Of a stretch of 38,600 bases of DNA, positions 22,763 through 26,135 are shown one piece after another (within the stretch, counting starts at the first letter, position 1; each line of letters starts with the position of its first letter). A program made the translations under genes and the position numbers. A model generated the notes under the pieces. The model made no database searches, was not told the DNA's origin, and was given only the letters and a program-made list of their open reading frames with translations. Origin of the DNA: Desulfobacterales bacterium (GTDB lineage: Bacteria; Desulfobacterota; Desulfobacteria; Desulfobacterales; JAAELO01); assembly GCA_024226555.1 (NCBI GenBank), contig JAAELO010000354.1, positions 1-38,600 of the forward strand, given 5' to 3'.

Positions 22763-23830
22763 CTAATTGGGTTCGTATTCAGAGATAATTTCTTTGATTC
22801 GGTTAGAATATTTAAAAATATCGTCTATTTGTTCAATTTCAATTCGTTCTTCATTTTTCTCTTTAAAAACACCAATATACTTTTGATTATAATTAAAATG
22901 AAGCCTACAAATAGGTTTACGGTTGTTATCGTCTAACAAAATACCACAATAGCTTTTGGTATCTCTCATTGTTACACGTTTTACGTCCATAACTTCACTA
23001 AGAATTGCTTTAACAACATTATAGCCATCTATTTCATCTTGGGTTGTTACGATACCATCTTTAATTGGTTCTGATTCATCTATTGTTTCTTCTTCATTAC
23101 TTGTTGGCTCTGAATCATTTGCAGATAAGGCGGATTTCAGGCGTTCATTAACTCTCTCATTTATAAACTGCTTTCTGGCTTCTTTTACAATAGGTGTGAA
23201 TTGCTCAAGAACTTGCTGTGTTATGCGACCATCATAAATCTGACCAGCAAAAAAACGAACAAAAGCTTCAGAAGGGTTTTTTAGTTCTTCATCAAGAATC
23301 TTCTTAATAGCTCCTGTATATTTTAAAGTGCTTGCTGTTGTTAGTATATCTTCAAGGGAGAAGGAAGATTTTGTAAATTTCTTCAACTCCTCTATTTGAT
23401 GATCTTCAAAATGTAATATATTAAATTCAAAAAATGGTTTCGAATCCATTTTATTTTTATCATCAAGATCTGAATAAAACCTATAAATAACACCATTTGT
23501 TAGTATTGCAAATCTTGCTTCTGTGACAGAAAAATAACGATATAATTGAGAAGCGTGCTCATTATTAAGTTCTACTCCTGACCATTTACATTCTATTAAC
23601 ATTATAATTGAATCATCTTTTTTAATTACATAATCAACTTTCTCACCCTTCTTTTTCCCAACGTCTGCTGTATATTCTGGAATCACTTCTAAGGGATTAA
23701 AAACATCATAACCAAGGGCTCCAATGAATGGCATTATAAATGCATTTTTTGTTGCTTCCTCAGTATTAATAAAATCCATTTGTTTAGGAATCCGTGAAGC
23801 AAGATCTTTAATGCGGTCAATTAAGTCCAT
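22763..23830 (-). CDS. Orphan PD-(D/E)XK nuclease-like protein (type I restriction R-subunit N-terminal domain)
   Basis: A protein of 355 residues. The first 160 match the HsdR N-terminal/endonuclease-like fold: an early acidic Glu in EEATKNAFIMPFI, then Asp66 in KVDYVI, Glu80 and Lys82 in IECKWSG, the layout of the PD-(D/E)XK active site. The rest is a helical linker and a C-terminal module (YCGILLDDNNRKPICRLHFN) often attached to such stand-alone proteins. No helicase domain and no methylase or specificity gene are present, so it is not a complete restriction system. A strong GGAGGA precedes the ATG. It lies divergent to a candidate RNA gene and an antirepressor-domain gene. Confidence 0.8.
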   Translation of the reverse strand: MDLIDRIKDLASRIPKQMDFINTEEATKNAFIMPFIGALGYDVFNPLEVIPEYTADVGKKKGEKVDYVIKKDDSIIMLIECKWSGVELNNEHASQLYRYFSVTEARFAILTNGVIYRFYSDLDDKNKMDSKPFFEFNILHFEDHQIEELKKFTKSSFSLEDILTTASTLKYTGAIKKILDEELKNPSEAFVRFFAGQIYDGRITQQVLEQFTPIVKEARKQFINERVNERLKSALSANDSEPTSNEEETIDESEPIKDGIVTTQDEIDGYNVVKAILSEVMDVKRVTMRDTKSYCGILLDDNNRKPICRLHFNYNQKYIGVFKEKNEERIEIEQIDDIFKYSNRIKEIISEYEPN

Positions 23831-24079
23831 GTGTCCTCCATTGATAATCTTATAAAAGATTAAATTGCATATAATAAGATTGTTTTTATACCATCAATTG
23901 CAATTACTAAAATTAAAAAAAAGCCTATTCAAAACGATTTTGAGAAAATATTTTTAAATGAGATGTATTTAAAAATGATATTTAGTCATACAAATTTAAA
24001 ATAAACTTGTCAACATAGTGAAATTATTTAATACATATTTAACTTTATGCTTGCAATTTTTAGATAGTCGGAGTATTTT

Positions 24080-24363
24080 TTTTAGAAATAACACAGGCGA
24101 AGATGCAAGAGACGCCAATCTCCTACATCTTCTGATCTATGAACTTAATATGAAAAGGATATTAAGCCCATGACTTCGAGTTATATACCAGAACTATTAG
24201 ATCAAAGTCAATTCGATAAGAAGAATTGTAGGAACTTTAATCTGTACAAAGGTTTTGTATTGTTGCGGATTGAAGTAACACTCTTACTTTCGTGTTTCAT
24301 TCAAAAGTTTACAGATTTTATTAATCCCGGATTGTTTTTATAAACGACCACGGGATTTTTTTT
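24080..24363 (+). ncRNA. Candidate structured RNA with intrinsic terminator
   Basis: No gene of ordinary size occupies 23831-24464, yet a strong terminator ends this segment. Perfect helices visible by eye: GAAGATG/CATCTTC (24099-24105, 24126-24132) with an inner GAGA/TCTC; TGATCTA/TAGATCA (24133-24139, 24198-24204) enclosing CTTAATAT/ATATTAAG (24144-24151, 24159-24166); CAATTC/GAATTG (24209-24214, 24223-24228); and AATCTG/CAGATT (24239-24244, 24312-24317) enclosing ACAAA/TTTGT. A weak promoter TTGCAA/TATTTT (24051, 24074, 17-bp spacer) would start it near 24085. No tmRNA, RNase P, 6S or riboswitch signature was recognised. A rival reading is a 57-codon frame at 24170-24343 with a poor ribosome-binding site. 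The 23831-24050 stretch is plain AT-rich promoter-like sequence. Confidence 0.4.
24322..24363 (+). terminator. Rho-independent terminator
   Basis: AATCCCG (24323-24329) pairs with CGGGATT (24351-24357), with an inner GTTT/AAAC helix (24334-24337, 24342-24345), followed by an eight-T run from 24356. It terminates something on the plus strand upstream of the antirepressor-domain gene, in a place with no recognised protein gene. Confidence 0.8.
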
Positions 24364-24380
24364 GGATGGTATTCGCCTAA

Positions 24381-24432
24381 GATGGATCCACAGCTCTTTT
24401 TTATCGATTTTCACAGGACTTGTGGTTCCATC
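24381..24432 (+). promoter_or_regulatory. Leader hairpin before the antirepressor-domain gene
   Basis: GATGGATCCACAG pairs with TTGTGGTTCCATC with one mismatch and one wobble, around a 26-nt loop. It lies between the terminator and the start codon at 24465. A small TTAGG/CCTAA repeat overlaps the ribosome-binding site AGGAA. Confidence 0.4.
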
Positions 24433-24464
24433 GAAATTAAATTCTAACTTAGGAACCTAAAATA

Positions 24465-24782
24465 ATGAATCTACGGACCGAAATCCCTATTTTGTCTATC
24501 AGCGTGAGCAGTGAAACACCAAGAGTGAATGCCTATGAACTTTATGTTTTTCTAAAAGCAGATGTACCTTTTAAAGCATGGATCGAAGATCTGCTTGATG
24601 GCTATGAAGGCTTTCATAGCTATATAGCAATTAAAGAACCTGCTATTGGAAGAAGGGATAGAGCTAACATGGTTTACTATATAAATTTAAGAATCGCAAA
24701 AATTGCAGCATTAAAAGCAGCTTCAACGCTTGGAGAAAGAGTCTATGAATATTTCAAAAGTTATGAAAAAAAAGAAAAATAG
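24465..24782 (+). CDS. AntA/AntB antirepressor-domain protein
   Basis: A protein of 105 residues. VNAYELYVFLKADVPFKAWI (about 21-40), then GYEGFHSYI, GRRDRANMVYYINLRIAKIA and GERVYEYFKSYEKK follow the order of the phage AntA/AntB antirepressor domain (VNA-x-ELH-FL ... W ... GF ... DY-LT-x-MAK ... G-x-x-x-R-x-YF). Phage antirepressors usually carry a second C-terminal domain; here the protein stops after the N-terminal domain. AGGAA lies about 9 nt before the ATG. No other phage gene is nearby, so it is either a domesticated regulator or a prophage relic. The partner it would antagonise is not visible. Confidence 0.7.
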   Translation: MNLRTEIPILSISVSSETPRVNAYELYVFLKADVPFKAWIEDLLDGYEGFHSYIAIKEPAIGRRDRANMVYYINLRIAKIAALKAASTLGERVYEYFKSYEKKEK

Positions 24783-24807
24783 TCTATTACAAAAAGCACT
24801 TTTTTCA

Positions 24808-24874
24808 TATCAAACTTTTCAAATGTTTGGGAAAAAATAAAAGCAAAGCATTATATTTCAGCACCAGCAGGGGG
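24808..24874 (-). repeat. Family-2 intergenic repeat, long copy
   Basis: Read on the minus strand it gives CCCCTGCTGGTGCTGAAATA, then AATGCTTTGCTTTTATTTT, then CCCAAACATTTGAAAAGTTT and GATATG, parallel to the copy at 38393-38461. It lies just after the stop of the antirepressor-domain gene. Confidence 0.7.
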
Positions 24875-24964
24875 ACTTTTTCTTTCTATACCACAGACAT
24901 TGATAAACGAGAGCAACATTAATTAGGTCAGCAATCAGTTATTAAAGGTTCACAAATTACATAA

Positions 24965-25095
24965 GGGAACCTCTAAAAAATAGAAATTTGATTGAAATAC
25001 AAGGGTGAGAAATAAATAACGAGGCGATTTTCCAACAGTTTTTTATTTCAAACAACGCAGTAGTTCGGGTCAAAGAGCAATTTTTAGAGATTCCC
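24965..25095 (-). repeat. Family-1 MITE-like repeat, copy H
   Basis: A full-length copy of 131 bp in reverse orientation: it starts GGGAACCTCTAAAAAATAG, has TTGATTGAAATACAAGGG and AATAACGAGGCGATTTT inside, and ends AATTTTTAGAGATTCCC. ATAA stands on both sides (24961-24964 and 25096-25099), as a target-site duplication would. It lies between convergent genes. Confidence 0.85.
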
Positions 25096-25100
25096 ATAAT

Positions 25101-26135
25101 TTAATTCTTACCATAAATTCTTTTGGTATTATATCTGTAAAATCCTGCCTGTTCCTCTATTTTTATAGTTTTTGCCATATCACCAAAAACATTTTTTCTT
25201 AGTTCATTAAGCTTTTCTTCTTTTTCATCTCCAACTGATTCGGAGTTAATTGAATCATAGTTTTTTCTATAATCACTGCCTTTTTCCCACTCTTTATCTT
25301 TTGCCATATCGTAGGATTTTAGAAATTTTACTTTCTTTTCCGGCATGCCCATAGCAGTTCGTATGTTTTCTATATAAACATGTCTTTCTTCATTTTCCAT
25401 ATCTGTTAAAGCATTCTGAATTGATCTGTTTTCAATTACCATTACTGCTAATTTTTCACTATTTCCAGAAATGAAAGATTCTGAATTATCGCCATAAAGA
25501 GCATTAATTGTTTCTCTGAATTTTATTACTTTTTCAGAAAAAGAATCATCTGTATTTTCAGCAAAATCCTTTACAGCACTGTTTGTTTTACTGTTCTTTA
25601 TCTCCTGAGCCCATATTTCATCGGCATCCTTCCCGAAAAACTCCCTTCTTTTATCCATTATTTCATTTAAAGAACTGTTACTGATAAAGTATTGCGGATT
25701 TTGTTCTATCCATGAATTATAAAGATCTATTTTATTTGTTAATAATATAAGCTGTTCATAAAGATCAGGAAATGCAGCTTTAAGATATTGCTCAAAAAGT
25801 ATTTTTGTATCCTGACCTGGATATTTACTTTTTAAAAATGACCTTAACTCTCTTATAAACTCATACTGCTTTTTCTTAAACAATATTTCAAATTCATATC
25901 TGTTTTGAATATTTGCAACCGTTTCTTTAAAAAAAATTTCATTTTCATGGGCATATTTAATCTCTTTTATTAATACTTTTTTATCAGAATCTGTTTTCTT
26001 AATGTTGGATTTATTATGCTCAGAAACCTGGTTTTTATCTGATAAATCTCTCTCATCAGATCTAAAAACTGAGTTGACTAAAAAGGCGACACCTAAAAAA
26101 AGCACTGATATTAATATTAAATTTTTAATTTTCAT
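25101..26135 (-). CDS. Lipase chaperone (lipase-specific foldase, LifO type)
   Basis: A protein of 344 residues with one N-terminal membrane anchor (about 4-23), a low-complexity charged linker, and a long alpha-helical periplasmic domain. The C-terminal pattern FYRYNTKRIYGKN and the position directly after a secreted lipase gene fit the steric foldases that fold family I lipases in the periplasm before secretion. Overall similarity to the textbook Pseudomonas/Burkholderia proteins is low, so the name rests partly on the gene pairing. The lipase stop is 78 nt upstream, with a strong hairpin in between. Confidence 0.75.
   Translation of the reverse strand: MKIKNLILISVLFLGVAFLVNSVFRSDERDLSDKNQVSEHNKSNIKKTDSDKKVLIKEIKYAHENEIFFKETVANIQNRYEFEILFKKKQYEFIRELRSFLKSKYPGQDTKILFEQYLKAAFPDLYEQLILLTNKIDLYNSWIEQNPQYFISNSSLNEIMDKRREFFGKDADEIWAQEIKNSKTNSAVKDFAENTDDSFSEKVIKFRETINALYGDNSESFISGNSEKLAVMVIENRSIQNALTDMENEERHVYIENIRTAMGMPEKKVKFLKSYDMAKDKEWEKGSDYRKNYDSINSESVGDEKEEKLNELRKNVFGDMAKTIKIEEQAGFYRYNTKRIYGKN

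Follow-up and report, generated by a model that had tools for sequence, protein, structure and literature searches.

What is the strongly folded stretch of DNA that precedes a small antirepressor-like gene in the window (the whole stretch that was analysed, 38,600 nucleotides of contig C354 from a Desulfobacterales genome), and do the stretch and the gene belong together? The preliminary description of this DNA had answered with a structured, terminator-ended RNA placed before a lone antirepressor-domain gene, and had regarded the two, together with the divergent gene on their other side, as a system-like locus. The divergent gene (22763-23830, minus strand) has a match to HSDR_N, the AntA-type gene (24465-24782, plus strand, 105 aa) lies approximately 100 nt downstream of the RNA segment, and the neighbours across 17.9-32.1 kb of the window appear, by eye, to be chromosomal. 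Inspection by eye of the ORFs listed for 12 other AntA loci brought up no HSDR_N-like protein. The view of a system-like locus was right for the RNA with AntA. On the far side of the AntA gene, an inverted-repeat element of MITE-like appearance occupies 24962-25098, with arms (TAAGGGAACCTCTAAAAA and TTTTTAGAGATTCCCATA) that are 89% complementary and 101 nt apart, and stretches resembling it are also present in C755, C847 and C406.

The RNA of the window, hereafter RNA1, is assigned to 24080-24363 on the plus strand on the basis of its fold and of two covariance models (R2 and R1, see below), its putative start being placed directly 3' of the -10 box of a promoter-like site (24051-24079, plus strand). 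This site, recognised by eye, consists of TTGCAA (24051-24056), 17 nt and TATTTT (24074-24079); it is absent from the output of an automated pattern scanner, and several other copies show, again by eye, TTGATT or TTGCTT as -35 box at the same place. The segment 24046-24362 folds with a minimum free energy (MFE) of -73.4 kcal/mol, versus -57.9 ± 5.05 for dinucleotide-shuffled sequences (z = -3.07), and none of 100 shuffles folded as well. Starting from the 5' end, the plus strand holds a bipartite helix 1 (24099-24132; arms 24099-24105/24126-24132 and 24109-24112/24119-24122), a helix 2 (24144-24166; CTTAATAT/ATATTAAG, 24144-24151/24159-24166), the loop and 3' arm of which contain AGGA and which is directly followed by an ATG, and a TGACT/AGTCA helix (24171-24210; 24171-24175/24206-24210), which is helix 4 of the covariation test described below. 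A further helix, AATCTGTA/TACAGATT (24239-24317; 24239-24246/24310-24317), was found by sequence complementarity, agrees with the MFE fold and encloses the variable 3' part.

The segment ends in an intrinsic terminator (24323-24363, plus strand), in which an AATCCCG/CGGGATT stem (24323-24329/24351-24357) with an inner hairpin within its loop is followed by T8. This hairpin appears in the thermodynamic fold of 24046-24362, and a similar terminator hairpin with a different stem is found at the same place in the C612 copy. The pattern scanner reported no terminator within 23000-26000; its loop limit is 8 nt, and the actual loop is longer. With the helices and the terminator stem present in the sequence and the fold beyond all shuffles, the structured, terminator-ended RNA of the preliminary description is confirmed. 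The second hairpin that had been noted in the AntA leader (24376-24453) is likewise present in the sequence, but we consider it unsupported, since 10 of 200 shuffles fold equally well and no counterpart was seen by eye in other AntA leaders.

A DNA search of the own genome (7.69 Mb in 904 contigs, with 3.7% contamination) with the window RNA gave six matches, the window included. With a profile from five copies and then with the covariance model R2, an approach that the preliminary description had suggested, RNA1 was found at nine places (136-170 bits), namely the window (C354), C488, C812, C111, C78, C627, C847, C612 and C303. In C303 (L041; L006 2054-2353), the RNA1 copy is followed by a different 99-aa frame in place of AntA, of which a broken second copy exists in C493, and a cobalamin riboswitch lies downstream (L006 2566-2759). 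Upstream of the AntA genes of C755, C903 and C406 we observed a different conserved non-coding block, RNA2. The search of the genome with RNA2 listed 41 matches, two of which are second pieces, leaving 39 places, some of them partial. Together with three further places that a profile revealed beside genes of a second small-protein family (YVGLT), this amounts to at least 42 RNA2 places, a lower bound with 40 of 86 candidates scored. In total, RNA1 and RNA2 occupy at least 51 places (9 + 42), some partial.

RNA1 and RNA2 probably form one superfamily, characterised by a two-step hairpin, a second hairpin and then an ATG, because the model of each RNA finds members of the other in place. R1, the RNA2 covariance model built from 34 sequences, recovers seven of the nine RNA1 copies (17.6-28.2 bits), each match beginning exactly 10 nt upstream of where R2, the RNA1 model, places the start; on the window it matches 24085-24222 on the plus strand (25.8 bits, E = 0.003). 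The copies of C78 and C627 were not recovered by R1. Conversely, R2 recovers three of six RNA2 loci in place, with 13.7-18 bits. It should be kept in mind that these kinship scores are low, and that the search with R1 also gave matches of 15-20 bits at senseless places or on senseless strands. The copies that were looked at begin at a promoter-like site and end in a terminator-like hairpin, and several RNA2 copies that stand on their own show conservation of the 3' region together with a terminator-like hairpin approximately 550-750 nt further on.

Neither RNA could be assigned to a known class. At gathering level, no Rfam family was found in the window, as the preliminary description had anticipated, and in eight loci with RNA1 or RNA2 the sole match at this level was the cobalamin riboswitch in L006, which lies apart from the RNA. 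A permissive scan of 23830-25110 gave two weak matches that were far under the family thresholds, and the best match in the permissive scans was that of L20_leader to the opposite strand of L052 (E = 0.043; 23.9 bits versus the required 58.7). Known Rfam classes were therefore rejected for RNA1 and RNA2.

Two further features of the RNA2 loci may be mentioned. Firstly, an AT-rich hairpin of varying sequence and similar shape seems, by eye, to be located directly upstream of helix 1, for example AGTAAAA...TTTTTACT in L052 and CAATAAAAAC...GTTTTTATTG in L049. Secondly, a kissing pair could form between GGGCAG, which belongs to the 5' domain, and CTGCCC, which is found in a terminator-like hairpin loop. 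In the stretch searched, the hexamer is situated in a predicted hairpin loop at 16 of 30 loci (L043-L047, L049, L050, L052, L054, L059, L060, L064, L065 and L068-L070), while three have it outside a loop or half paired and 11 are without it. The stems differ between the two RNA2 types; since the copies are related, we regard this candidate contact as a lead rather than a test.

If these sequences are maintained as RNA, their helices should be kept, and the preliminary description had pointed to compensatory changes as a check. Homologues do keep the helices, and compensatory changes are strong in RNA2 and modest in RNA1. In helix 1 of RNA2, 94.7% of the cells are paired, versus 35.7-51.5% when the partners were slid by one to three columns. 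The same helix has 40 double-change cells versus 14.0 in shuffles, with none of 500 shuffles reaching 40, although it should be noted that related sequences may surpass such shuffles without structure. The number of pairs with double changes in this helix is closer to the shuffles (6 versus 4.6; 59 of 500 reach 6), and its nine pair types are no excess over the 10.7 found in shuffles. For the nine copies of RNA1, in an alignment that was not structure-fitted, 89.6% of the cells are paired overall, versus 34.3-47.8% with partners slid, and five pairs show double changes versus a shuffled mean of 1.8, a value that 3 of 500 shuffles reached. Helix 2 (97.2% of cells paired, 7 of 8 pairs invariant) is conserved without covariation, and the TGACT/AGTCA helix is paired in 94.4% of cells, with 5 of 6 pairs invariant. 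In helix 1, the outer part of which is paired in 73.0% of cells, 4 of 11 pairs changed on both sides, each in one of the nine copies. The covariation in RNA1 is thus thin, the double changes being carried by single sequences. Moreover, two slid controls scored higher in covariation (0.078 and 0.077) than RNA1 itself (0.067), its pair types were not above those of shuffles (242 of 500), and in the consensus that RNAalifold itself derived from the alignment the first hairpin is paired differently, at a covariation term of +0.92.

The ATG that follows helix 2 opens a frame within RNA1 (24170-24343, plus strand), and one may ask whether this frame and its RNA2 counterpart represent a functional short peptide gene. 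The ATG is indeed kept across all aligned copies, and the RNA2 types differ by an in-frame length of 3 nt, with the codons that were translated being free of stops. The codons themselves tell otherwise when single-base codon differences are counted. The first 22 codons in the nine RNA1 copies show 5 synonymous and 31 non-synonymous differences where 8.0 synonymous ones are expected without constraint, and the corresponding 17 codons in 33 of the 34 RNA2 sequences (L100 was left out) show 13 synonymous and 43 non-synonymous differences, with 12.9 synonymous ones expected. That this test is able to detect selection on a protein is evident from the 12 AntA genes, which served as a control and vary mostly at third positions, with 185 synonymous and 131 non-synonymous differences versus 72.9 synonymous ones expected. 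In addition, the RNA1 frames stop at differing places, and the stretch CGTCAACGCCTCTTT is kept at the nucleotide level, its three four-fold sites being invariant in 34 of 34 sequences. We therefore rejected the short peptide, which we regard as highly improbable: it is the RNA itself that selection keeps, and the frame within it is not kept as protein, contrary to the possibility raised earlier that homologues might conserve this frame instead of the helices.

The AntA gene turned out to be 'lone' in a restricted sense only, as the RNA-AntA pair recurs across the genome. There are 12 full-length AntA copies; in addition, C862 has a 5'-truncated one close to the end of a contig, C198 and C414 contain fragments, and C124 gives a very weak match. 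Nine of the ten full-length genes with at least 1 kb of upstream sequence have one of the RNAs there, RNA1 in C354, C612, C111, C78, C488 and C847 and RNA2 in C755, C903 and C406; C337 and C838, with less than 0.7 kb before the contig end, were left out of these ten. The exception is C611, upstream of which neither RNA was found but a reversed 299-aa frame that, by reading, is a putative tyrosine recombinase. In C612, an integron integrase (TIGR02249; L026 505-1464; 435.9 bits, cut-off 265) is encoded directly upstream of the RNA1-AntA copy and in the same direction.

A comparable association exists for the YVGLT family, which has 28 matches in the genome, fragments included. RNA2 lies upstream on the same strand in 14 of the 17 YVGLT loci that have no internal stop and at least 1.4 kb of upstream sequence (C380, with the gene in two pieces, was counted); the loci without it are C755:64713, C898:8152 and C456:76320. 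The chance that a random gene has one of the 51 places within 1.5 kb upstream on the same strand is approximately 0.005. Viewed from the RNA, the 30 RNA2 loci L042-L071 (of the 39 places) comprise three with AntA, 10 with YVGLT and 17 with neither. When three of these 17 are excluded for having less than 450 nt downstream, neither gene is present at 14 of the 27 loci with enough downstream DNA, and the contigs of these 14 are missing from the AntA and YVGLT match lists. The co-occurrence of RNA and small-protein gene is therefore tight but not obligatory. Wherever the two are paired, RNA and gene share a strand and the RNA comes first, at a distance of approximately 100 to more than 1000 nt with repeats in between.

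Both partner proteins are small (approximately 100-120 aa), and no similarity between the two families was detected. The assignment of an AntA/AntB domain, made before any database search, is upheld by matches to PF08346 at E ≤ 0.01 (best 1.3e-5) and to phrog_5817, 'anti-repressor Ant' (best 7.9e-10), in 12 of 12 paralogues, as for phage AntA/AntB antirepressors. It needs qualification for the window copy, which like C611 (21.2 and 20.7 bits, respectively) stays under the curated Pfam cut-off of 27; unlike the phage proteins, moreover, the family has 12 paralogues in one genome and shows no further domain. In the window protein the match spans residues 21-79 of 105 aa, and there is no other Pfam match that would indicate a second domain. 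This protein is without the short C-terminal tail present in the 11 other full-length paralogues and, having lost it, may be decaying. Across the 12 paralogues, the AntA genes are under strong purifying selection, as judged from the excess of synonymous differences reported above. The predicted AntA structure (pLDDT 73.2) weakly resembles DNA-binding proteins, the best matches being Mbp1 and DdrC with E-values of 0.52 and worse. For YVGLT (pLDDT 75.5), the fold search found nothing in the PDB at E ≤ 0.001, its best match having E = 0.97. Its profile matches distant WYCGIT proteins, which we take to be GIY-YIG-like, in 3 of 389 genomes of the order (one being G036). The idea that YVGLT is GIY-YIG-like comes from this profile match and finds no confirmation in Pfam, PHROGs or the fold search.

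The immI region of phage P1 (c4 RNA, icd, ant) likewise has an antirepressor gene that is preceded by an RNA on its own strand, and the preliminary description had likened the present layout to it. In a c4-like arrangement, the small RNA would pair with the leader of the antirepressor gene and block its expression. The AntA domain and the position of the RNA are as expected for such control, and at C847 the energy of the RNA-leader duplex was reached by only 1 of 100 shuffles. However, at each of the nine loci at least 9 of 60 shuffles matched the longest run of complementarity that the RNA has with the AntA leader, so that this run exceeds shuffles at none of them, and the duplex energy is unremarkable at the other eight. 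The P1 antirepressor has an effector domain beyond AntA, and no such domain was identified by Pfam in the window protein; the present family further differs from immI in its dozen copies and in the related RNA that also occurs without the gene, as at the 14 partnerless RNA2 loci. No viral, phage or plasmid relative of the protein was found. Antisense control of the c4 type was therefore rejected, and we attach very little probability to it.

A more serious alternative is that the RNA is a cis-acting leader, i.e. an attenuator or riboregulator in which the terminator or the ATG after helix 2 controls the downstream small gene. The invariable order and strand at every paired locus are what such a leader would show, as is the terminator hairpin that precedes the gene; furthermore, the ATG follows helix 2 in all nine RNA1 and 34 RNA2 aligned sequences, many of which have, by eye, an AGGA-like stretch before it. 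These properties have to be set against the variable distance between RNA and gene with its intervening repeats, the 14 of 27 RNA2 loci that are without such a gene and the fact that one RNA would have to serve two gene families without detected similarity. Altogether, a cis-acting leader seems possible, but rather unlikely.

Several copies share sharp left ends. The matches of C488 with C812 (91.8% identity over 378 nt) and with C78 (88.6% over 438 nt) begin 7-10 nt upstream of the -35 box, BLAST giving no match beyond that point, and L052 and L062 (91.5% over 667 nt) have a common left end further up, again with unrelated flanks. These boundaries suggest that the unit was copied as a discrete piece. 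RNA and protein parts also appear to have been re-combined between loci, judging from the sequences: the AntA gene of C755, which follows RNA2, is nearest to those of C612 and C111, which follow RNA1, and the AntA genes of C611 and C78 are 91-92% identical from approximately 7 nt before the start codon while their upstream sequences differ. No transposase, terminal repeat or target duplication could be tied to the units. Mobility is accordingly suggested by the left boundaries, no terminal repeats or target duplications having been seen by eye at the unit ends. Close downstream of two RNA2 copies, Y1 transposase genes are present on the minus strand among REP-like palindromes (L059 613-1158 by match to PF01797 and L068 765-1448 by similarity; coordinates relative to the RNA), and the L059 and L068 counterparts are 90.6% identical.

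The discrete left boundaries with unrelated flanks could equally be those of a non-autonomous dispersed repeat of the MITE or REP kind, in which any folding would serve the spread and AntA would ride on the same element. The many RNA-only copies, the richness of the genome in other repeats and the proximity of the Y1 transposase genes to L059 and L068 agree with this explanation. Yet the layout from promoter to terminator and the compensatory changes speak against it, as do the strong co-occurrence with protein genes and the purifying selection on AntA, and by eye there are no terminal inverted repeats at the unit ends. We consider a mere repeat of this kind unlikely.

How far do RNA and protein extend beyond this genome? 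In 389 genomes of the order, R1 found its own genome and one weak match (G354) and R2 its own genome and another weak match (G104); in 365 genomes of the phylum, R1 found its own genome only. For the matches listed, these wide searches scored seven candidates per genome under stricter filters, so that distant members may have been missed. An exact 22-base RNA2 pattern was not encountered in genome_contigs or viral_contigs, from which the own genome was possibly left out. As for the protein, an AntA alignment confirmed no relative in genome_contigs (42 pattern matches) or viral_contigs (20), a further AntA search found one paralogue and no match in phages or plasmids, and among 58 genomes the window AntA protein was present in its own alone. 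The G104 match (L124) was taken as false, since it shares sequence with the end of an opposite-strand coding frame, and helix 2 is not formed. The G354 match (L116 1501-1646, 37.5 bits) resembles the RNA2 5' domain with helix 1 and helix 2 down to the ATG and precedes a 118-aa ORF, the genes beside which are, by eye, mobilisation-like. It could be a distant relative of the RNA in the form of an mRNA leader; its kinship is unproven, as the single homologue found for this ORF (in G387) has, by eye, no such leader and R2 did not find L116. The best reading of these searches is that the RNA family is lineage-restricted, within the range that search filters and sampling define. Among the papers listed by searches of the open-licence PubMed Central literature, none reports such an RNA family in its title or the opening lines of its abstract.

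Some known systems share part of this anatomy. In type III toxin-antitoxin systems (ToxIN), an RNA is followed by a terminator and then by a small gene, as is the case here. This class was rejected, because 23900-24900 contains no tandem repeats and the downstream protein has no match to a toxin family, neither Pfam nor PADLOC giving ToxN, CptN or TenpN. HEARO or omega RNAs occur as scattered units with many RNA-only copies. According to excerpts of two reports (PMC9755519, PMC12286853), the HEARO or omega RNA with IscB or IsrB is a structured RNA in the 5' region of the protein gene, an arrangement that the present loci resemble. In contrast, RNA1 and RNA2 have no Rfam match, and a scan of four window proteins around the RNA showed no HNH or RuvC nuclease, the recurring partners being AntA and YVGLT with their approximately 100-120 aa. 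ROOL, GOLLD and OLE are described, in an excerpt of one of these reports, as long structured bacterial ncRNAs with still poorly understood functions, of which ROOL and GOLLD are encoded by phages or prophages, often near tRNA islands (PMC12286853). They differ from the present RNAs, whose many copies lie beside small-protein genes and match no Rfam family.

As anatomy, a dispersed structured RNA that is often paired with small proteins is well supported. From the observed copies, adjacency, covariation, selection pattern and left boundaries, we are led to a preferred reading to which we would give an even chance: a dispersing ncRNA gene that is restricted to its lineage, is often accompanied by a small-protein gene and most likely acts as RNA together with the protein. 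Many copies of the RNA are followed by a separate small-protein gene, of AntA type as in the window or of YVGLT type; the unit appears to have spread to unrelated sites by being copied as one piece, with RNA and protein parts re-combined. The RNA may act in trans, either controlling the small protein family or serving as its partner, and the whole may constitute an RNA-protein module, selfish or domesticated, in which AntA is the DNA-binding part. It should be noted that the fixed upstream order on the same strand fits cis control as well, and that two partner families without detected similarity on one RNA superfamily fit no simple cognate pairing. By analogy with omega RNA systems, one could go further and imagine a new class of self-spreading element, in which small DNA-binding proteins (AntA or YVGLT) would be brought to DNA or RNA targets by a structured RNA whose apical loop varies, full copies carrying the gene and RNA-only copies using the protein in trans, in an omega-RNA-like manner without a nuclease; we put this forward as a speculation that we consider unlikely.

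It is unusual for one bacterial genome to have a related structured RNA at approximately fifty places and for this RNA to be tied to two families of small proteins. As the protein gene is present at some copies and absent from others, the loci lend themselves to simple deletion and trans-complementation tests. If RNA and protein act together, the AntA domain, known from phage switches, would gain an RNA partner, and these loci would offer a small system in which the origin and spread of RNA-protein elements may be studied.
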